DNA of 64,000 nucleotides, taken from contig CALLIL010000009.1 in NCBI GenBank assembly GCA_938009755.1, positions 1 through 64,000 on the forward strand, written 5' to 3'. Under the pieces are notes generated by a model. It did no database searches. It saw only the letters and a list, made by a program, of their open reading frames with translations, and was not told the DNA's origin. Source of the DNA: an uncultured Marinomonas sp. (GTDB lineage: Bacteria; Pseudomonadota; Gammaproteobacteria; Pseudomonadales; Marinomonadaceae). Position numbers and translations under genes: made by a program. Positions 2,887 through 47,617 of the stretch are shown in pieces. Numbering within the stretch: position 1 is the first letter of the stretch; the number at the start of each line of letters is the position of its first letter.

Positions 2887-3849
2887 TTAATTCTCGTAGC
2901 GAGACAAGATTACGTCGATGTCCTTTGGTGCTTCTGCTTTCCATTCTGTAGACATGGTTTCACCGATTTCTTTTAGTTCTGCGACTAATTCTGCAGAAGG
3001 CTTAGAAACCGTCATACCATTCTCGATCAAGATTGCTCGGTCTTTCGCGGCACGCGCAGCTACGCCTGCCCAACCAGCACTTTCTGCGTTAGCCGCAGCA
3101 TCTAAGATGATTTGTTGAGTGGTTTTGTCTAAACGACGGAATGCGCGTTTATTGGCAACCACAATGTTTTTTGGTACCCAAGCGTTGATTTCCGTAAAGT
3201 AATTAACATAATCCCATGCTTGGCTACTAACACCCGTTGAAGGCGACGTAACCATGGCTTGAATAATGCCCGTACTGAATGCTTGTGGGATGTCTGGAGT
3301 TTGTACCGTAGTTGGTGTTGTTCCCATTAAGTCCGCTAGACGAGAAGTTGATGGGCTGTAAGCTCGCATTTTTGCGCCTTTCAAATCAGCCAAGGTGTTC
3401 ACAGGCTCTTTGCTGTAAAGGCTTTGAGATGGCCAAGCAACTGCATAAAGCAGAATCATGCCGTCTTTGTCTAAGGCTTTTTTGACAGAAGGCTTAGCGG
3501 CTTCCCATAATTTTTCTGCTTCAGGGTAGGTGGTTGCTAAAAAGGGAATGTTGTCGTGCTTATAGATTGGGTTTTCATTGCCTAAAATTCCCAAAAACAC
3601 TTCACCCATTTGAACTTGGCCTGTTTTTACAGAGCGCGGAATTTCTGTGTGTTTTACTAAAGACGCACCAGAGTGGACGGTGATATCGAGCTCGCCCTGA
3701 GTATTGTCTTTGATTTCTTGAGCGAAGTTATACGCGATTTGAGTTGGTAAGTTGCCGTCACCGTAAGGCGTTGGCATGTGCCATTTCGCGGCAAGTGCGC
3801 CTGTAGAAACAAGTCCGCCGATAAGTAAAGCACTGGTTAATTTCAACAT
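2887..3849 (-). CDS. TRAP transporter substrate-binding protein (DctP family)
   Basis: Signal peptide and DctP-like fold sequence; same operon as DctQM. Confidence 0.92.
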   Translation of the reverse strand: MLKLTSALLIGGLVSTGALAAKWHMPTPYGDGNLPTQIAYNFAQEIKDNTQGELDITVHSGASLVKHTEIPRSVKTGQVQMGEVFLGILGNENPIYKHDNIPFLATTYPEAEKLWEAAKPSVKKALDKDGMILLYAVAWPSQSLYSKEPVNTLADLKGAKMRAYSPSTSRLADLMGTTPTTVQTPDIPQAFSTGIIQAMVTSPSTGVSSQAWDYVNYFTEINAWVPKNIVVANKRAFRRLDKTTQQIILDAAANAESAGWAGVAARAAKDRAILIENGMTVSKPSAELVAELKEIGETMSTEWKAEAPKDIDVILSRYEN

Positions 3850-4034
3850 GGTTTTTATTCCTCTGAGGGTGGTAAGTGGGTTGATGTCTAATAAGCATTT
3901 TTTGCGCCATGTTTACGATTTTGCTGTGTAAGGTTTTTTACCTTTAAATAATCTTTTCATTCTTGCTCTTTAGAACCTTTGGCGTGAAGTGAGGCTTGCG
4001 TTATGCTGTGGGCAATTTCAGAGGAAGGCTTAAA

Positions 4035-4946: not shown

Positions 4947-5617
4947 GTTAATTTAGAGAGGGGATCGCTTTTAGCATATGCACCAAATAAAAAGAAATTC
5001 CATGCTTGCTCAAAATAATCATCTTGAGCTTTGATGGAACTATAGGTTGTGTTTCCTAACATTGCGTCATTCGATGGCCCAAAAACGATGGAGTGCAACA
5101 AATGCATTGCTAATTTCTCAGGGGAGCCTTGACACAAGAAACTTGACGCTTGTGCTTCTTTAACTAGCATAACCAAACTGTCCATAATTGGATCGCTATA
5201 TGGTTGGTCTGCTTGGATGGCAACGAAAAATTTGGACTCACTAAGGGCGATGCGTTTAAAGGCAACCATTTCAGGGTCTAAGTTCACAGTAAGAAACCAG
5301 CGAGCAATGTGTTTGAGTTGTTCTAGCTTATTACCTTCGCTACTTATTTCTTCAATTTCTAATGCTAATTTATCCACGATGCGGCAACGCATACTGGCAA
5401 CAACCGCTTGAAAAAGCTCAAGTTTTGAGGGATAACGGCGATAAATTGTATCCTTTCCTGCACTGCATGCGGATGCAACCTGTTCAATAGAGGTTGCGGC
5501 ATACCCCTGTGTTGCAAATAAATTGGCAGCGGTACTGATGATTCTTTTCGATGTTTCCTCAGCCCTATTTTTTGAAGGCCTTCCTGAGCGTTTTTCTTTA
5601 TTAGGCTGTTCTATCAT
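4943..5617 (-). CDS. TetR/AcrR family transcriptional regulator
   Basis: N-terminal HTH: RIISTAANLFATQGYAATSIEQVASACSAGKDTIYRRYPSKLELF. Confidence 0.93.
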   Translation of the reverse strand: MIEQPNKEKRSGRPSKNRAEETSKRIISTAANLFATQGYAATSIEQVASACSAGKDTIYRRYPSKLELFQAVVASMRCRIVDKLALEIEEISSEGNKLEQLKHIARWFLTVNLDPEMVAFKRIALSESKFFVAIQADQPYSDPIMDSLVMLVKEAQASSFLCQGSPEKLAMHLLHSIVFGPSNDAMLGNTTYSSIKAQDDYFEQAWNFFLFGAYAKSDPLSKLT

Positions 5618-5736
5618 TATCTCTCCTATTTATTTCCCATTTTTTATCTGCCCATAAGTCATGAGTCACAGGACTGTTTCCTGTGATCATGGACAATAAC
5701 AATTTGAGCCAAAATTTTCCTTATTATAGCAAAAAT

Positions 5737-5760
5737 AAACTGGACGGGTGCGTCCCGTTT
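5737..5760. promoter_or_regulatory. Candidate TetR operator palindrome AAACTGGACGGGTGCGTCCCGTTT
   Basis: AAACtGGACG-N4-CGTCCcGTTT inverted repeat (one mismatched pair) between divergent tetR and the TonB receptor gene. Confidence 0.5.
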
Positions 5761-5780
5761 GATTTATATTCATCTCAATT

Positions 5781-5799
5781 GCTAATGCGAATCAATATC
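5781..5799. promoter_or_regulatory. Candidate Fur box GCTAATGCGAATCAATATC
   Basis: 15/19 match to GATAATGATAATCATTATC, directly upstream of the TonB receptor start. Confidence 0.6.
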
Positions 5800-5813
5800 A
5801 ACAAAAATATAAA

Positions 5814-7973
5814 ATGAAGGCTAATAATCTTATGACCATAGCTACATCTAAGAAAATTTCGATTTCAATTGTGACTTTTTCACTCTTTCATGGCATCACA
5901 GGTTATGCCTTTGAAGCTGATAACTCACTGCCAACACTTGTGATAGAAGAGGAAGCGTTGGCAAGTTCAACAGAAGATCAGTACTTAAAAGATGATTCTA
6001 GTAGTGCAACTAAAAGTGCTTCATCTATGTTAGAAGCGGCGCAATCCGTTTCAGTTATTACTCGTAAACAGATGGATGATCAAAGTGCGAAAACAGTAAA
6101 AGAAGCCTTAAATTACACCTCTGGGGTGTTATCAACGACTAATGTTACGAGCCGATACGACAGCGTTTTTATACGGGGCTTTGGTGGATTTGGTACGGCA
6201 ACCCGTTCCGTAGACTTTTTAGATGGATTAAAACTGCCAAGAGGGCAAGGCTTCTTGGTATCTTCTATCGAGGCATTTTTACTAGATCGTATTGATGTAT
6301 TAAAAGGCCCGTCCGCCTTGTTGTATGGTAACACTAGCCCTGGTGGATTAGTGAATCAGGTTAGCCGTTCACCTGATTCTAATCCTTATAACGAAGCAAA
6401 TATTACAATTGGTACAGATAATTATCTGCAAGGGAGTATTACTACCCAAGGAGCAATCGATAAAGAAGGGAAATGGCAATATAGTTTGACTGGAGTGAGC
6501 ACCTATGCAGATAGTCAATATGATGATGTTAGCGAAGAGCGAATTGCCTTGGCGCCAGTTATAAAGTGGACTCCAAATAATAAAACACAATTGACACTAA
6601 GAGCTTTGTATCAAGAAGACCCTGAAGGTGGGTATTTTAATTCTATTTACTCTAGATCATTGGCTGATAGCGAGTATAAAACAGCACTGAGTAGGGATCT
6701 AAATGTCGGCGACCCAAGCTTTGACGATTATGAGCGAGAGCAATATTACTTTGGTTATGAGCTAGACCATGTCATTAACGACATGATTAGTATTAGTTCA
6801 AAAGCAAGGTATTTTTCCGCGGAACAGGATTTCCAAGGCATACAAATGAGTGGTGAGCTCACCAGTGATGGTCTTTTACCTAGAGCCGCTGCACATTCTA
6901 TTGAAGATGTAGAAAGTTTTACGGCAGATAACTTTGTGCAGTTTGATTTCAACACCGAAGGCGTTCAGCATACAGCGCTCGTCGGCTTAGATTACCAACA
7001 GACAACGAGCAACTGGGAGTATTTGTACGGTGTCGTCGATTCTCTTGATGTAACATCGCCTGTGTACGGTATCACTGTAGACTCACTTACCACTTTTGCT
7101 GATAGTAAGCAGACATTAGAACAAACCGGAATCTACTTGCAAGATCAGCTAAAAGTAGGTCGTTTAACGGCTCTTTTCGGTACTCGTTATGATTGGACAA
7201 AACAAGAAACCGAAAACAGGTTAACAGACTCAGTAAGCAATCAATCTAGTGGAGCATCGAGCCATCGAGCTGGGTTACATTACTTATTTGATAACAATGT
7301 CGCACCTTATATTAGTTACTCTACCTCGTTTGAACCAACTGTTGGTGTGGATGCTGACGGAAATGATTTCGTTCCAACAGAAGCAGAACAATGGGAACTT
7401 GGGGTTAAATTCAAACCTTCTGTTATAGATGCGCTTATCACACTTTCTGTCTTTGATATTGTTCAAGAAAATGTATTAACAGCAGGAACAACCGCAGGTT
7501 TTTACGTCCAACAAGGTGAGGTTCAATCTCGTGGAGTTGAGCTAGAAGTACGCGGTCAAGTCAGTGAAAACTTAGAGTTGATCGGTGCTATTACCGGATT
7601 AGACACACAGACGACAGAATCGACGGTAGCTGAAAATATAGGCAAACGCCCTCAAACCTCTCCTGAATATTATGCGTCTTTATGGGCGAACTACAGCTTC
7701 CTTGATGGGGTAAGTGTTGGCAGTGGTATTCGTACTGTTGGTTCTAGTTATGCGAATGATGCTAATACCATCAAAACAGACGGTTATACCTTAGTGGATG
7801 CAAAAATCAGTTATAACCTAGGTGCTTTAAATCCCTTATTTAAAAATATAGATACAACCTTAAGCATTTCTAATCTGTTCGATGAAGAGTACTACGCTAG
7901 CTGCAGCTATAACTATTACTGTCAATACGGTGATGGAAGAGAAGTGCTGCTTAATGCTAGCTACAAATGGTAA
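5814..7973 (+). CDS. TonB-dependent siderophore receptor
   Basis: Plug motifs (SVSVITRKQMDDQSAKTVKEALNYTSGV, DRIDVLKGPSALLYGNTSPGGLVNQVSR) and a C-terminal barrel ending in W. Confidence 0.95.
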   Translation: MKANNLMTIATSKKISISIVTFSLFHGITGYAFEADNSLPTLVIEEEALASSTEDQYLKDDSSSATKSASSMLEAAQSVSVITRKQMDDQSAKTVKEALNYTSGVLSTTNVTSRYDSVFIRGFGGFGTATRSVDFLDGLKLPRGQGFLVSSIEAFLLDRIDVLKGPSALLYGNTSPGGLVNQVSRSPDSNPYNEANITIGTDNYLQGSITTQGAIDKEGKWQYSLTGVSTYADSQYDDVSEERIALAPVIKWTPNNKTQLTLRALYQEDPEGGYFNSIYSRSLADSEYKTALSRDLNVGDPSFDDYEREQYYFGYELDHVINDMISISSKARYFSAEQDFQGIQMSGELTSDGLLPRAAAHSIEDVESFTADNFVQFDFNTEGVQHTALVGLDYQQTTSNWEYLYGVVDSLDVTSPVYGITVDSLTTFADSKQTLEQTGIYLQDQLKVGRLTALFGTRYDWTKQETENRLTDSVSNQSSGASSHRAGLHYLFDNNVAPYISYSTSFEPTVGVDADGNDFVPTEAEQWELGVKFKPSVIDALITLSVFDIVQENVLTAGTTAGFYVQQGEVQSRGVELEVRGQVSENLELIGAITGLDTQTTESTVAENIGKRPQTSPEYYASLWANYSFLDGVSVGSGIRTVGSSYANDANTIKTDGYTLVDAKISYNLGALNPLFKNIDTTLSISNLFDEEYYASCSYNYYCQYGDGREVLLNASYKW

Positions 7974-41270: not shown

Positions 41271-41344
41271 TTGGCAGTACCATCACAATCGATTACCTTA
41301 TTGCTCATAATTATCAAACAGAGGTTTAGAAGTGACGACAAAGC
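41271..41344. repeat. Imperfect direct repeat, copy 1 (upstream/start region of the RpiR gene)
   Basis: TTGGCAGTACCATCACAATCGATTACCTTA...GTGACGACAAAGCA resembles 45211-45281. Confidence 0.7.
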
Positions 41345-42150
41345 AGGACGTATTATCCCTGATAGAAGAAAATTATTCGAAGCTGTCTCCTTCTGCGCGG
41401 GCGATTGCCAATTATTTGCAGCAAAACCCTCTGGCGATTGTGAGTCAAACGTCGGCTGAAATTGCGGAAAAGACGCAAACGTCAAAAGCCACCGTAAGTC
41501 GCTTTTTTCGTCAGCTTGGTTATGAAACGCATCACGGTGCGAAACAAGCTCAGCTTGCTTTGCGAGAAAGTGGCGTGCCGACTTTTATCGAAGGTGCGTC
41601 GTTAGACCAAACCGCTCAAGAAATGAAAAACCTTTCTTTGACCTTTGAAGGCCTGCGCCCCGATATCCTTAACGACATAAGCCAGAGATTGGCGAAGGCG
41701 AGTCGAGTGACCTTGATTGGTTTCCGTAATGCGTACCCAATGGCGCTGCATTTTCGTCAACAACTTCAACAAGTGCGACATTCTGTGCGTTTATTGCCGC
41801 AGCCCGGTCAAACCTTGGGAGAAGACTTACACGATATTCTTGATGATGAAGTGATTGTGCTTTTGGGATTCAGAAGGCGCACACGTCAATTCAAACACAT
41901 CATACAAGTTTTGGAAGGGCGCGATACTGTCTTGATTACCGACCCAACAGGGCAGATTTACAATCAACAAGTGTCTGACGTGCTTGTTTGTCACCTTGGC
42001 AACGAAAGCCCATTCGACAGTTACGCCGCACCAATGAGCTTGATCTCCATGTTGTGCAACCGCACCTTTGGTTTTCTGGGCGACAGTGCCAGCAACCAAG
42101 CGCAAGACATTTCAGAGTTGTATGAAACACTGGATGAATTAGAGCCTTAG
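41332..42150 (+). CDS. MurR/RpiR family transcriptional regulator (HTH + SIS)
   Basis: SPSARAIANYLQQNPLAIVSQTSAEIAEKTQTSKATVSRFFRQLGY; SIS-like C-terminus; GTG start. Confidence 0.92.
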   Translation: MTTKQDVLSLIEENYSKLSPSARAIANYLQQNPLAIVSQTSAEIAEKTQTSKATVSRFFRQLGYETHHGAKQAQLALRESGVPTFIEGASLDQTAQEMKNLSLTFEGLRPDILNDISQRLAKASRVTLIGFRNAYPMALHFRQQLQQVRHSVRLLPQPGQTLGEDLHDILDDEVIVLLGFRRRTRQFKHIIQVLEGRDTVLITDPTGQIYNQQVSDVLVCHLGNESPFDSYAAPMSLISMLCNRTFGFLGDSASNQAQDISELYETLDELEP

Positions 42151-42186: not shown

Positions 42187-42218
42187 TTGTAAACCACCAA
42201 AAAACTTTCAGTTTACAT
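42187..42218. promoter_or_regulatory. BirA operator-like site TTGTAAACC-N14-AGTTTACAT
   Basis: 7/9 match in the right half-site to the TTGTAAACC/GGTTTACAA consensus; located upstream of bioM. Confidence 0.75.
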
Positions 42219-42340
42219 TGATTGCTGGCATTGCTAGTATCTCGCGCTCAAGATTTACGGATACGCGCATTTTATCCGTGTGTCTTCTTTATAGCGCGTG
42301 CGTTTGTGGCACGTTTTATCTGTACTGAGCGCTGATGTGA

Positions 42341-43102
42341 ATGATGAATATGAAGAGTCCTGCTGAAAGTTCTACTACGACGGGTTGTGCCATTCGGTTA
42401 GATCAGGTTTGCCTAGAAGTCGAAGGCAAACAGGTCATTAACCAATTGTCTCTGGAGACGAATGCTCGTCGACTTGGCGTGATTGGTCGTAATGGCTCAG
42501 GCAAGTCCACTTTATCTCGCTTACTATCTGGATTGATTGACACTACGTCTGGAGAACTTGAAATTGCTGGTTTCAATCCGTTTAAAGACCGCCGCGCAGC
42601 CTTGCGTGAAGTTGGCCTGTTGTTTCAAAATCCAGAACACCAAATTATTTTCCCAACCGTATTAGAAGAAGTCATATTCGGCTTGCGTCAATTGGGTCAA
42701 GACAAAGCCACTGCCAAACATAACGCTCTGGAAGTCTTGTCTAGATTCGGCAAAGAACACTGGCAGGATGCTCATTGTTCTGCGTTATCTCAAGGACAAA
42801 AACATCTGGTTTGCCTGATGTCGATTGTCGCCATGAAACCGAATCTTATTATTCTTGATGAACCGTTTGCTGGCTTGGACATTCCGACCAAGCGCCAATT
42901 ACAGCGTTACCTCGACACCTTTTCTGGCAGTCTTATTCACATCAGTCACGATCCCGATGATTTGCAGAATTACGATCAGCTTTTATGGTTGGAAGCTGGG
43001 CAAGTCGAAGCCTTGGGACAGTCTGACGAAGTGATGCCACGTTATTTAGCGGCCATGCACGAACTGGGAGAAAGCGATGATATCTCTGACCTCTCCAATT
43101 GA
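42341..43102 (+). CDS. bioM: Biotin ECF transporter ATPase
   Basis: GRNGSGKSTLSRLLSGL; ECF-A-type ATPase, followed by ecfT and bioY. Confidence 0.88.
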   Translation: MMNMKSPAESSTTTGCAIRLDQVCLEVEGKQVINQLSLETNARRLGVIGRNGSGKSTLSRLLSGLIDTTSGELEIAGFNPFKDRRAALREVGLLFQNPEHQIIFPTVLEEVIFGLRQLGQDKATAKHNALEVLSRFGKEHWQDAHCSALSQGQKHLVCLMSIVAMKPNLIILDEPFAGLDIPTKRQLQRYLDTFSGSLIHISHDPDDLQNYDQLLWLEAGQVEALGQSDEVMPRYLAAMHELGESDDISDLSN

Positions 43103-43691
43103 AACCCGCGCACATCGCTGGCCCGCTGGATTAAAGCTAGGGCTGCTGAGTCTGGTGACCTTTGGCTTGTTCTTTGTTGATAGTGTCCTTTTTCATGGTG
43201 TGTTTTTGGTATTTGTAACAGCGCTCTATGCATTACCTGGAAGACTATTTTTTAAAAATGGCTGGAAGCACCTGAAAATATTATGGCCGTTTGTTTTTAT
43301 TGTGGTTGCTTGGCACCTGTTTACAGATGAGCTGCCGCTGGGGTTAACCGTGGCTTTTCGTATGATCTCCGCCGTGGGACTGGCGAATTTAGTCACCATG
43401 ACAACGCGCCTTTCCGACATGATTGATGTTGTGCATTGGTTGACTCGCCCGCTGCAACGGCTTGGCTTTAACCCCCGAATATTAGAATTGGCGATTGCCT
43501 TGGTGATACGAATGACACCCGTGCTGGTTTCCAAAGGGCAGAGCTTGGCTTTGGCTTGGCGAGCCCGTTCAAATCGTCGCTCCGGCTGGCGAATCATTTT
43601 ACCTTTTACGGTCCTCGCGCTTGACGATGCGGACCATGTTGCCGAAGCCTTAAAGGCCCGCGGCGGATTAACAAACCAAGAGAGAGAATAA
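43077..43691 (+). CDS. bioN: Biotin ECF transporter T component
   Basis: EcfT-like; TPVLVSKGQSLALAWRARSNRRSGWRIILPFTVLALDDADHVAEALKARGG. Confidence 0.87.
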   Translation: MISLTSPIETRAHRWPAGLKLGLLSLVTFGLFFVDSVLFHGVFLVFVTALYALPGRLFFKNGWKHLKILWPFVFIVVAWHLFTDELPLGLTVAFRMISAVGLANLVTMTTRLSDMIDVVHWLTRPLQRLGFNPRILELAIALVIRMTPVLVSKGQSLALAWRARSNRRSGWRIILPFTVLALDDADHVAEALKARGGLTNQERE

Positions 43692-44251
43692 TGGAAAAAA
43701 ATATTGCTTATATCGCTTTGTTTGCAGCTTTGGTTGCCGCACTGGGTTTGATCCCTAAAATAACCCTTGGCTTTGGTGTGCCGATTACGGCGCAGGGTCT
43801 TGGTATTATGCTTTGCGGCACGATATTAGGCGCCAAACGCGGTGCGTTAGCGGTGTTGTTGTTGCTGTTATTGGTTGCTATTGGCTTGCCTTTATTGGCG
43901 GGTGGTCGCGGCGGCTTGGGACTGTTCTTTGGCGTAACGGGTGGTTTTCTAATTGGCTGGCCGGTTTCTGCTTATGTGACAGGATTAATCGTTGAAAAGT
44001 GGCGCAGCGGTTCTATTACGCTTGTGTCATTCGTTGCTTCCATTATTGGTGGCATCTTCGTGATGTATCTGTTTGGCATTGTTGGCATGGCGATCGTGTT
44101 GGAGAAAACCTTCTTTGAGTCCGCAGCATTGATGATTGCTTTCATACCTGGAGACATTATTAAAGCGATTATTGCGGGTTTGTTAACCGCAGCCATTGCG
44201 AAAGCTCGTCCAGCCAGTTTGTTGTCTCGACAAGTTAAAGTGACATCCTAA
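43691..44251 (+). CDS. bioY: Biotin ECF transporter S component
   Basis: Six-TM BioY: TAQGLGIMLCGTILGAKRGALAVLLLLLLVAIGLPLLAGGRGGLGLFFGVTGGFLIGWP. Confidence 0.93.
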   Translation: MEKNIAYIALFAALVAALGLIPKITLGFGVPITAQGLGIMLCGTILGAKRGALAVLLLLLLVAIGLPLLAGGRGGLGLFFGVTGGFLIGWPVSAYVTGLIVEKWRSGSITLVSFVASIIGGIFVMYLFGIVGMAIVLEKTFFESAALMIAFIPGDIIKAIIAGLLTAAIAKARPASLLSRQVKVTS

Positions 44252-44282
44252 TATCTGTGTGGACAGTAGTAGAGGAAGTCAG

Positions 44283-45038
44283 GTGAAGATTCTGATTTAT
44301 ACCGATAATGTTTCCGCTAACCACGTCCTCTATTATGCGCTGGCACGGCTGTACGGTAAAAGCAGCGTTTGCTTCGTTAACGCCAATGAAGTTTTAAACG
44401 GTGCTTTAACCGACGATGTGGATCTGTTCGTTATGCCTGGCGGAGCCAGTCGCTATAAAGCCGATAAACTCAATGGCGCAGCAAACCGCATGATCAAACA
44501 TTATGTTGAACAGGGCGGCCGCTATTTTGGTATTTGTGCTGGCGCTTATATGGGCTGCAGTGTGACAAAATGGGCACAAGGTTTGCCCCATGAAATCATT
44601 ACTGAGAATGAATTGGCTTTCTTCTCGGGAGCGGCGGTCGGCCCGATCGAGGCGTTTGGTCGGGGTGATAACTACAATCAGACTGACGCCCATTCAGTGA
44701 CTCTGGAATACCAAGGTAAATTAGTCTCTTCTCTGTATTTGGGCGGCTGTGTTTTTAAGCCTCATACGGCAACAGATGATGAGGCAAAAGGTTATAAGGT
44801 GCTGGCGTCTTTTGCTGATTTACCAGAAAAACCAGCAGCGGTTGTCTCAGGCCAATACGGAAAGGGGCAGTGGTTGTTGTGTTCAACACACCCTGAATAC
44901 GATAACGAAGCCGTTGAGCTGTTAAATTTTGATGTGATCGGCAATCAATACGAGCATTTCTCTCGGTTGCCAGATGACATTGATCTACGTCTGGAACTAA
45001 TGGAAAGCTTATTAGCCAGCCTTAACCTCCCTTCCTGA
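44283..45038 (+). CDS. Stand-alone biotin-protein-ligase N-terminal (BPL-N) domain protein, class-I glutamine-amidotransferase-like fold
   Basis: MPGGASRYKADKLNG, RYFGICAGAYMGCS (nucleophile elbow), LLCSTHPEYDNE (His/Glu). GTG at 44283 preferred over 44259. Confidence 0.82.
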   Translation: MKILIYTDNVSANHVLYYALARLYGKSSVCFVNANEVLNGALTDDVDLFVMPGGASRYKADKLNGAANRMIKHYVEQGGRYFGICAGAYMGCSVTKWAQGLPHEIITENELAFFSGAAVGPIEAFGRGDNYNQTDAHSVTLEYQGKLVSSLYLGGCVFKPHTATDDEAKGYKVLASFADLPEKPAAVVSGQYGKGQWLLCSTHPEYDNEAVELLNFDVIGNQYEHFSRLPDDIDLRLELMESLLASLNLPS

Positions 45039-45210
45039 GGTATTGGCACGGCTAGTGCTCCTTACTAATACCTCGTACAAAAGCTTCTTCCTGTTAATAA
45101 GACGTTTATTCAAGAACCTCTCGCTCAGTGTGTTCATAGCATCTTACCTAACATTGTTTCATTTGACTTATTGGTGCGTAATGGAATAAAAAGCCAATCG
45201 TCAATCTAAG

Positions 45211-45382: not shown

Positions 45383-46264
45383 ATGAAAAGATATATAGAA
45401 AATGGATCTATAAAACCAAAGCGAACAATAATCGACGCACTCATTACGATTACTTTTTTAACCGTTATTTTCGATTCTACATACACGGTTAATGAAGGTC
45501 ATGTAGGCATTGTGAAAAGGTTTAGTGAAGCACAGAATCAAGTTTCACCGGGATTGCATTTCAAAGTTCCATTAATTGACTCTGTTGAAGAAATTGAAGT
45601 TAGAACTCGTAAGAATGAAGAGAAAATGGCATCAAGTACTGAAGAGCAAATGCCAGTGACCGTTGTGGTTTCTGTTAACTGGACAGTTGAAAAATCAGCG
45701 GCATTAGAACTATTTCGGCAGTATGGCGGCTTATCTCAATTTGAGCAGAGAATATTAGACCCGAGATTTAGATCTGCCACCAAAGATGTGATACCTAAAT
45801 TTGCAGCTGAGCAATTGATCCAAGATAGAGCCAGTGCTATTCAATTGATTGAAAGAAACTTGATTGAAGAAATGAAAAGTTTCCCCGTTACAGTCGATAA
45901 TATCCAGATTGAAAATATAGAATTGCCTGCCAAATACATTGCATCGATTGAAACAAAACAAACAGAAAAGAACCTCGCTGATGCAGAAAAGCATAAATTA
46001 GCACGTCAAAATCTAGAGGCTCAACGTGGTGTGAATACAGCAAAAGCAAAGGCAGATGGAATTAACTTGGTTGCCATAGCAGAAGCCGAGTCTATTAGGA
46101 TTAAAGGCTTGGCTGAGGCTGAAGCGATCACGGCTAAAGCAAAAGCGTTAGGTAATAACCCTTTAATTATTAAACTGACTGAAGCTCAAAATTGGGATGG
46201 TAAACTACCAGCAACCATTCTCGGAAACGGAAATATGCCTATCTTAGATTTACGCGCTAAATAA
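45383..46264 (+). CDS. SPFH/prohibitin (band 7) domain protein
   Basis: NEGHVGIVKRFSEAQNQVSPGLHFKVPLIDSVEEIEVRT; C-terminal coiled-coil AEAESIRIKGLAEAEAITAKAKAL. Confidence 0.88.
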   Translation: MKRYIENGSIKPKRTIIDALITITFLTVIFDSTYTVNEGHVGIVKRFSEAQNQVSPGLHFKVPLIDSVEEIEVRTRKNEEKMASSTEEQMPVTVVVSVNWTVEKSAALELFRQYGGLSQFEQRILDPRFRSATKDVIPKFAAEQLIQDRASAIQLIERNLIEEMKSFPVTVDNIQIENIELPAKYIASIETKQTEKNLADAEKHKLARQNLEAQRGVNTAKAKADGINLVAIAEAESIRIKGLAEAEAITAKAKALGNNPLIIKLTEAQNWDGKLPATILGNGNMPILDLRAK

Positions 46265-46387: not shown

Positions 46388-46411
46388 ATGTTTCTTCACC
46401 AAGGGGGAAAC

Positions 46412-47617
46412 ATGAAACACTTCATCGCAAAAAGTCCATTTCTCGAAATATCAGATCAAGCTCGGATTCAGCCATCGTCTGGCGAAGACTTGATTGACCA
46501 AAAACACTCTCTGAGTGGTTTGCGTTTGGCGGTGAAAGATTTGTTTCATGTGGCAGGTTTGCCGACGTCAGCGGGCAATCCGACTTGGTTGGCAACACAC
46601 GATATTCCTACGCAAACCGCTTCTAGCGTCACTGCATTATTGCAAGCGGGCGCGCAATTCAGTGGCAAAACCATTACCGATGAATTGGCTTACAGTTTAA
46701 ACGGCCAGAACATTCATTACGGCACTCCTGAAAACCCAATCACGCCCGATCGTTTGCCTGGTGGTTCGTCTTCTGGCTCGGCCATCGCCGTATCTGCTGG
46801 TTTGGCGGATATTGGTCTAGGAACCGACACAGGCGGCTCGATTCGTGTGCCTTCTAGCTATAACGGCTTATTCGGTTTACGCCCAACGCATGGTGTGATC
46901 GAAATGGACAATATGGTGGGATTAGCGCCGTCTTTTGATACGGTTGGTTGGATGACAAAAGACCTAATTAGTCTAGAAAAAGTCGCGAACGTTTTGCTGC
47001 CAAACAATGCCAAAACCTCGTTTGATAAGGTGCTCATTTGTGACAACCTCATTGATCAAGTCGCCCATTCAAACGAGCTGAAAAAACAGTTGGCAGTATG
47101 GCGTCAGCAAGGCTTGTTGACGAACGAAGCGTCTTTTGACATTGACACACAGGCTTGGCAAACCAGCGAAACCTTTAGAACACTACAAGGGGCTGAAATT
47201 TGGTCCGAGCACGGTCAGTGGATTGAAAAAGAAACGCCGGTCTTTGCGCCAGACATTCAAATACGACTTGAATGGTGCGCTACGATTTCTGCGGATGACG
47301 TAGCGGTCGCCAAGCAACAACGTAAAAACTTTACGGATTGGATTCAAAAGGCGTTGAAAGACGCGATTCTTATTATGCCAACGACACCGGGCTTATCGCC
47401 GCTTTTTGAAACAGATGTCGACGAGTTAGCCGCCTATCGAAACCAGCTAATGGATATGACAGCCATTGCAGGCTTAGCAGGTTTGCCTCAGCTGCATTTG
47501 CCTGTGTGTGAGCTAAACGGTGCGCCTTGTGGTTTGTCTTTGGTTGGCCCGCAAGGCAGTGATTTAGCCTTAATTGCGTTCGCCAAAACAGTGTTAGGAG
47601 TTGGCTCTCATGAGTAA
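46412..47617 (+). CDS. Amidase (amidase-signature family)
   Basis: AVKDLFHVAGLPTSAGNP, PGGSSSGSAIAVSAGLADIGLGTDTGGSIRVPS; ATG 46412 with AAGGGGGA RBS. Confidence 0.92.
   Translation: MKHFIAKSPFLEISDQARIQPSSGEDLIDQKHSLSGLRLAVKDLFHVAGLPTSAGNPTWLATHDIPTQTASSVTALLQAGAQFSGKTITDELAYSLNGQNIHYGTPENPITPDRLPGGSSSGSAIAVSAGLADIGLGTDTGGSIRVPSSYNGLFGLRPTHGVIEMDNMVGLAPSFDTVGWMTKDLISLEKVANVLLPNNAKTSFDKVLICDNLIDQVAHSNELKKQLAVWRQQGLLTNEASFDIDTQAWQTSETFRTLQGAEIWSEHGQWIEKETPVFAPDIQIRLEWCATISADDVAVAKQQRKNFTDWIQKALKDAILIMPTTPGLSPLFETDVDELAAYRNQLMDMTAIAGLAGLPQLHLPVCELNGAPCGLSLVGPQGSDLALIAFAKTVLGVGSHE

Follow-up and report, generated by a model that had tools for sequence, protein, structure and literature searches.

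A stand-alone BPL_N protein in a BirA-box biotin uptake operon of Marinomonas: a possible enzyme of biotin salvage

The N-terminal domain of the eukaryotic class III biotin protein ligases, such as yeast Bpl1 and human HLCS, belongs to the family PF09825 (BPL_N; COG4285, uncharacterised conserved protein) and carries a Cys-His-Glu triad, which has been reported for the yeast ligase as C89, H215 and E217 (PMC12582158). In these enzymes the domain is fused to the ligase and is thought to recognise the acceptor protein, and mutations in it cause a biotin-unresponsive disease in people (PMC12582158). The protein considered here belongs to the same family, but is encoded as a separate bacterial protein and is tied to a biotin transporter. 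With BirA-controlled BioMNY systems the present locus shares all three transporter subunits and a BirA box that overlaps the promoter, but it has BPL_N as a fourth gene. With the class-I glutaminase subunits PdxT/YaaE and HisH, BPL_N shares the fold, the PGG loop, the nucleophile elbow and the HxE motif. Human biotinidase (BTD), finally, would share the reaction proposed below, i.e., the release of biotin from biocytin; it is a secreted member of the nitrilase superfamily, with a fold unrelated to that of BPL_N.

In the window, by which we mean the whole 64,000-nucleotide stretch of Marinomonas DNA that was analysed (source genome 78% complete; no match in a plasmid search), the genes bioM, bioN, bioY and BPL_N form one rightward unit, flanked by an RpiR/SIS regulator gene and a Band-7 gene (Table 1). 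The ATPase, with its Walker A (GRNGSGKST), signature (LSQGQ) and Walker B (LIILDEP) motifs, the CbiQ-type T-component and BioY, which together define a BioMNY transporter, all lie within this unit. The genes bioM and bioN overlap by 26 nt, bioN and bioY overlap by 1 nt, and 31 nt separate bioY from BPL_N. These coordinates confirm the tightly packed arrangement described in the earlier note, and the bioM-bioN-bioY-BPL_N operon is real and well supported. The GTG start of BPL_N agrees with the start position in its relatives. The hairpin at the BPL_N stop codon has no strong T-run and is absent from the intrinsic terminators predicted; it is a possible end of the unit.

Table 1. Positions of features in the window and of MsrA genes in three other loci
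Feature	Sequence	Positions	Strand	Remarks
RpiR/SIS regulator gene	window	41332-42150		upstream flank
BirA-type operator TTGTAAACC-N14-AGTTTACAT	window	42187-42218	+	motif match, conserved N14 layout
Sigma70-like promoter	window	42212-42240	+	-35 TTTACA, 17 nt, -10 TAGTAT
bioM	window	42341-43102	+	biotin ECF transporter ATPase; ABC_tran
bioN	window	43077-43691	+	ECF transmembrane coupling protein, CbiQ family; Ala-Arg motifs ARS and ARG
bioY	window	43691-44251	+	biotin-binding S-component; PF02632, 4.5e-33
BPL_N gene	window	44283-45038	+	stand-alone, 251 aa, GTG start at 44283; PF09825, 4.4e-38
Cys85 codon	window	44535-44537	+	predicted nucleophile; strand 80-84, Cys85, helix 86-91
His203-Pro204-Glu205 codons	window	44889-44897	+	remainder of predicted triad
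Hairpin	window	45036-45075	+	11-bp outer stem, begins at BPL_N stop codon; -18.2 kcal/mol, z = -1.8
Band-7/SPFH gene	window	45383-46264		downstream flank
Amidase gene	window	46388-47617		PRK08310
MsrA	L032, Vibrio sonorensis	3398-3919	+	upstream of bioM
MsrA	L031, Photobacterium proteolyticum	5379-5888	+	directly upstream of BPL_N; genome without BioY
MsrA	L035, Aliagarivorans	6810-7283	+	2 nt 3' of BPL_N

An amidase gene lies directly 3' of BPL_N in M. sargassi, M. ushuaiensis and M. colpomeniae, and only in the window does the Band-7/SPFH gene stand between the two. Considered as a further member of the operon, this amidase follows BPL_N in the three species just named but not in the other gammaproteobacterial loci, among them those of Vibrio and Aliagarivorans; it was rejected, and is probably a local neighbour.

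The earlier note had also placed a BirA operator upstream of bioM, and this assignment holds: TTGTAAACC-N14-AGTTTACAT is the sole match in the 64 kb, with none in 100 shuffles. The operator has two mismatches with respect to TTGTAAACC/GGTTTACAA, and 942 kb of Markov-shuffled loci contained no match with two mismatches or fewer. The -35 element falls within the right half of the operator, and operator and promoter overlap; this overlap and a spacer within the N14-16 range agree with membership in a BirA regulon. The region upstream of bioM retains the right operator half, the N14 layout and the promoter spacing in four relatives (M. sargassi, M. ushuaiensis, M. colpomeniae and the genome G139), while the left half is variable and in some of these four degenerate. 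The promoter spacer is 17 nt in all five bioM upstream regions and 16 nt before bioB of congeners, where five of them have a matching design, TAGTAAACC-N14-GGTTGACAG, 16 nt and TAGTAT. The window genome encodes a class II BirA of 317 aa (HTH_11, 4.7e-12). Conservation across species thus supports, at the level of sequence, the BirA control that had been proposed. In Vibrio, Aliagarivorans, Pasteurellaceae and Chlamydiae there was no clear BirA box, the best matches being at chance level, and the predicted operator control is therefore supported for Marinomonas and its near relative, and limited to them.

The product of the fourth gene is, as had been claimed, a protein in its own right. It matches PF09825 end to end with 131.3 bits against a curated cut-off of 24.2 (residues 1-249 on profile positions 1-263 of 283), BPL_N covers all 251 aa, and the Pfam search found neither a ligase nor a nitrilase domain. 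NCBIfam has no model for stand-alone BPL_N. An AlphaFold model built with an alignment of 53 relatives (pLDDT 91.9, pTM 0.91) predicts a class-I glutamine amidotransferase-like fold rather than a nitrilase fold, and its best Foldseek matches are PdxT and HisH (E down to 3.9e-9, TM 0.56/0.71). A profile search gave weak PdxT matches only, and a phmmer search of the PDB with the single protein gave no match. From PdxT and HisH the protein differs by an identity of just 14-18%, by an operon without a partner synthase and by the loss of the PdxT PGG-E-S-T (PGGEST) loop, of which the PGG part is present. Beyond the triad, residues Y6, D8, GG154-155 and F158 are invariant and specific to the family.

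Both motifs to which attention had been drawn, GICAGAY and THPEYD, are present, and they provide an elbow Cys and a His-x-Glu in sequence and in predicted secondary structure. The likeness to active class-I amidotransferases stands as regards fold and Cys-His-Glu, but may not extend to activity, for yeast BPL has the triad and yet did not convert glutamine to glutamate (PMC12582158). Nor does the triad mark the stand-alone form: the motif is common to class-I GATase-like proteins and fused eukaryotic ligases, and the triad itself is no new observation, since it is already described for the yeast ligase (PMC12582158). What is informative is its distribution. His203 occurs in all 53 relatives and Glu205 in 51 of them, neither being imposed by the search pattern, while the invariance of Cys85 is partly built in because the pattern included the Cys. 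All 26 copies of BPL_N linked to bioY have an intact Cys-His-Glu.

To exemplify the contrast, consider the many alphaproteobacteria, chiefly around Micavibrio, that carry BPL_N as a tandem pair. In these pairs the first copy retains Cys-His-Glu, while the triad is found in only three of the 19 rows of the second-copy class (one of the three being a fused ligase); in most of the 19 the His is gone. Because of the fold, and because the conservation of His and Glu contrasts with the degenerate second copies, the primary BPL_N is predicted to be catalytic and not merely structural, a conclusion that sequence and model support. Such pairs occur in most of the loci L041-L055, L057, L070, L071, L076 and L079 (in L044, for instance, at 5995-6750 and 6753-7664), and an intact and a diverged BPL_N in tandem could possibly form an active/inactive heterodimer.

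The earlier note had further tied BPL_N to biotin import and had suggested a survey of genomes for BPL_N beside bioY, and here the genomes bear it out: of 94 family rows, 26 have bioY no more than 1 kb away from BPL_N, where we estimate a chance expectation below 0.1. The linked copies come from three phyla (Pseudomonadota, Chlamydiota and Spirochaetota) and in at least three arrangements. A codirectional bioMNY-BPL_N order is found in Marinomonas, Vibrio, Thaumasiovibrio, Aliagarivorans and an Osedax symbiont, and a divergent bioY/BPL_N order in Mannheimia, Bibersteinia, Brevinema and the genome G495; in chlamydiae the two genes overlap or lie close together. A quick tree, built from the 80 best among 370 matches, requires six changes of linkage, at least three of them forced by starred branches; this count has lower resolution. 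Within Marinomonas, bioY is present in four of 50 species, and BPL_N comes directly after it in all four. Order-wide, BioY is found in 19 of 195 genomes, and all three strong BPL_N genomes are among those 19, with BPL_N adjacent to BioY. One verrucomicrobial BPL_N adjoins bioB-bioF, and in Cupriavidus and Photobacterium the gene is remote from biotin genes. In the open-access literature we found no paper on the bioY-BPL_N link; the setting is recurrent and apparently unreported, the protein family itself being known.

The linkage is not obligatory in either direction. BPL_N as a strict partner of BioY was rejected, as several BPL_N genomes are without BioY. Conversely, the genome G163 (locus L155, of the same genus, g91, as G139) has a bioMNY operon and is without BPL_N both at the locus and in the genome.

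Several hosts of a linked bioY and BPL_N have lost bioB or have only a damaged copy, namely M. ushuaiensis, G139, G495, Brevinema and some chlamydiae; the gene is kept in many others, the window genome included, so that BPL_N as a marker of biotin auxotrophs is only partly true. In M. ushuaiensis (locus L137, contig C6 of G235, 130000-143000) bioD-like and bioH-like genes are kept and bioB is reduced to a broken C-terminal piece with a stop, from which follows that this species probably depends on imported biotin. Among 27 BPL_N genomes, mostly alphaproteobacterial (around Micavibrio) and mostly MAGs, 26 are without bioB over the cut-off and 24 without BioY; BirA was found in both of those that were checked. 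These absences suit lineages that live on biotin bound in the proteins of other cells, and are suggestive only. BPL_N is over the cut-off in 37 of 114 genomes in the order of Micavibrio sp. UBA2137, against three of 369 in the gammaproteobacterial sample.

This evidence makes it probable that BPL_N serves to release biotin, or to manage it, within the cell. The reading that we tentatively prefer, although we put it somewhat short of even, is that BPL_N takes part in salvage as a Cys hydrolase, releasing biotin from biotinyl amides. When biotin is scarce, BirA would leave its operator and the bioM-bioN-bioY-BPL_N unit would be derepressed, so that biotin would be imported by the BioMNY pump while in the cytosol BPL_N would hydrolyse biotinyl amides by means of a catalytic cysteine. 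In biocytin or biotinyl peptides the amide carbonyl would be the target of Cys85, aided by His203, Glu205 and the PGG loop; the substrate would arise as the cell's own biotin proteins are turned over, or would be taken in with food, and the freed biotin would supply BirA. BPL_N would then be a bacterial counterpart of biotinidase, built on an unrelated fold. There is a precedent in gamma-glutamyl hydrolase, a folate-salvage enzyme with the class-I GATase fold. The substrates proposed in the earlier note, biocytin or biotin amides, would fit. Uptake of biocytin via BioY is doubtful and, because BioY proteins are known to be specific for biotin, the more likely source is biotin recycled as the cell turns over its own proteins.

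Hydrolysis would explain the triad and the regulation, as well as the tie to import and the fact that predators and intracellular bacteria have BPL_N. Against it stand the nearest folds, which are glutaminases and not amide hydrolases, the many BPL_N hosts that are biotin prototrophs, the position of the gene away from biotin genes in Cupriavidus and Photobacterium, and the eukaryotic relatives, which are tied to ligation and not to hydrolysis (PMC12582158). Should BPL_N prove to hydrolyse amides, it would close a gap in the bacterial recovery of protein-bound biotin. A much wider proposal, that BPL_N is a widespread unrecognised biotinidase on the glutamine amidotransferase fold, that predatory and intracellular bacteria without bioB or BioY live on protein-bound biotin through it, and that the activity or a remnant of it persists at the N-terminus of the human and yeast ligases, is unlikely. 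In any case, a free-standing bacterial BPL_N that accompanies a biotin transporter offers a small protein for a direct test of the conserved triad.

The main rival to the hydrolase reading is that BPL_N acts in trans as a partner of BirA, recognising or holding the acceptor protein or tuning the ligase, as the fused class III domain does in eukaryotes; it would be co-expressed with import since ligation has to follow the supply of biotin. It is the fusion to eukaryotic ligases that gave the family its name, in yeast and human the domain touches the acceptor protein and shifts when a ligand binds (PMC12582158), and BirA is present in 36 of 36 genomes tested. The gammaproteobacterium G387 even has a BPL_N-biotin ligase fusion of 811 aa (L016 1138-3573, contig C17), directly 3' of a solitary BPL_N gene, but a second, separate BirA in the same genome is without the BPL_N domain. 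Moreover, such a partner has no need for the Cys-His-Glu triad that nearly all primary copies keep, and the recurrent neighbour of BPL_N is bioY, not birA. We consider a BirA partner a real rival, only somewhat less likely than the hydrolase.

Distinctly less is to be said for a protein without turnover that serves as a carrier, store or regulator by binding biotin, a derivative of it or the BioMNY complex. The start codons of BPL_N that overlap bioY in some chlamydiae suggest coupled synthesis, and a ligand pocket could be made up of the family-specific residues that are invariant in addition to the triad, but His and Glu are strict in primary copies and mostly lost from the second copies of tandem pairs, which speaks for catalysis, and binding alone is improbable.

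A glutaminase subunit that passes ammonia to an acyl-adenylate partner, such as the biotinyl-AMP of BirA, and so makes a biotin amide or modifies biotin, would agree with PdxT and HisH as best fold and profile matches, with the retained triad and PGG loop, and with the eukaryotic fusion of a GATase-like to an adenylate-forming part, which mirrors known amidotransferases. However, the operon is without a synthetase gene, the PGG-E-S-T loop of PdxT is lost, and we know of no biotin amide product. A plain glutaminase is further weakened because yeast BPL, when given glutamine, produced no glutamate and showed no change in biotinylation (PMC12582158); we regard this alternative as very improbable.

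That the biotin link is incidental, BPL_N hydrolysing an unrelated amide or countering an unrelated stress and sitting in the operon by chance or through shared regulation, would suit the members without a bioY neighbour (Cupriavidus, Photobacterium) and the MsrA gene that recurs beside BPL_N, but bioY is a separate neighbour in three phyla, bioB-bioF adjoins one copy, and ligase fusions exist as well; coincidence is very unlikely, and we give this explanation hardly any credence.

The MsrA genes encode a methionine sulfoxide reductase of the PRK05528 type and lie near BPL_N in three gammaproteobacterial genera (Table 1); it is conceivable that the enzyme acts on biotin sulfoxide.
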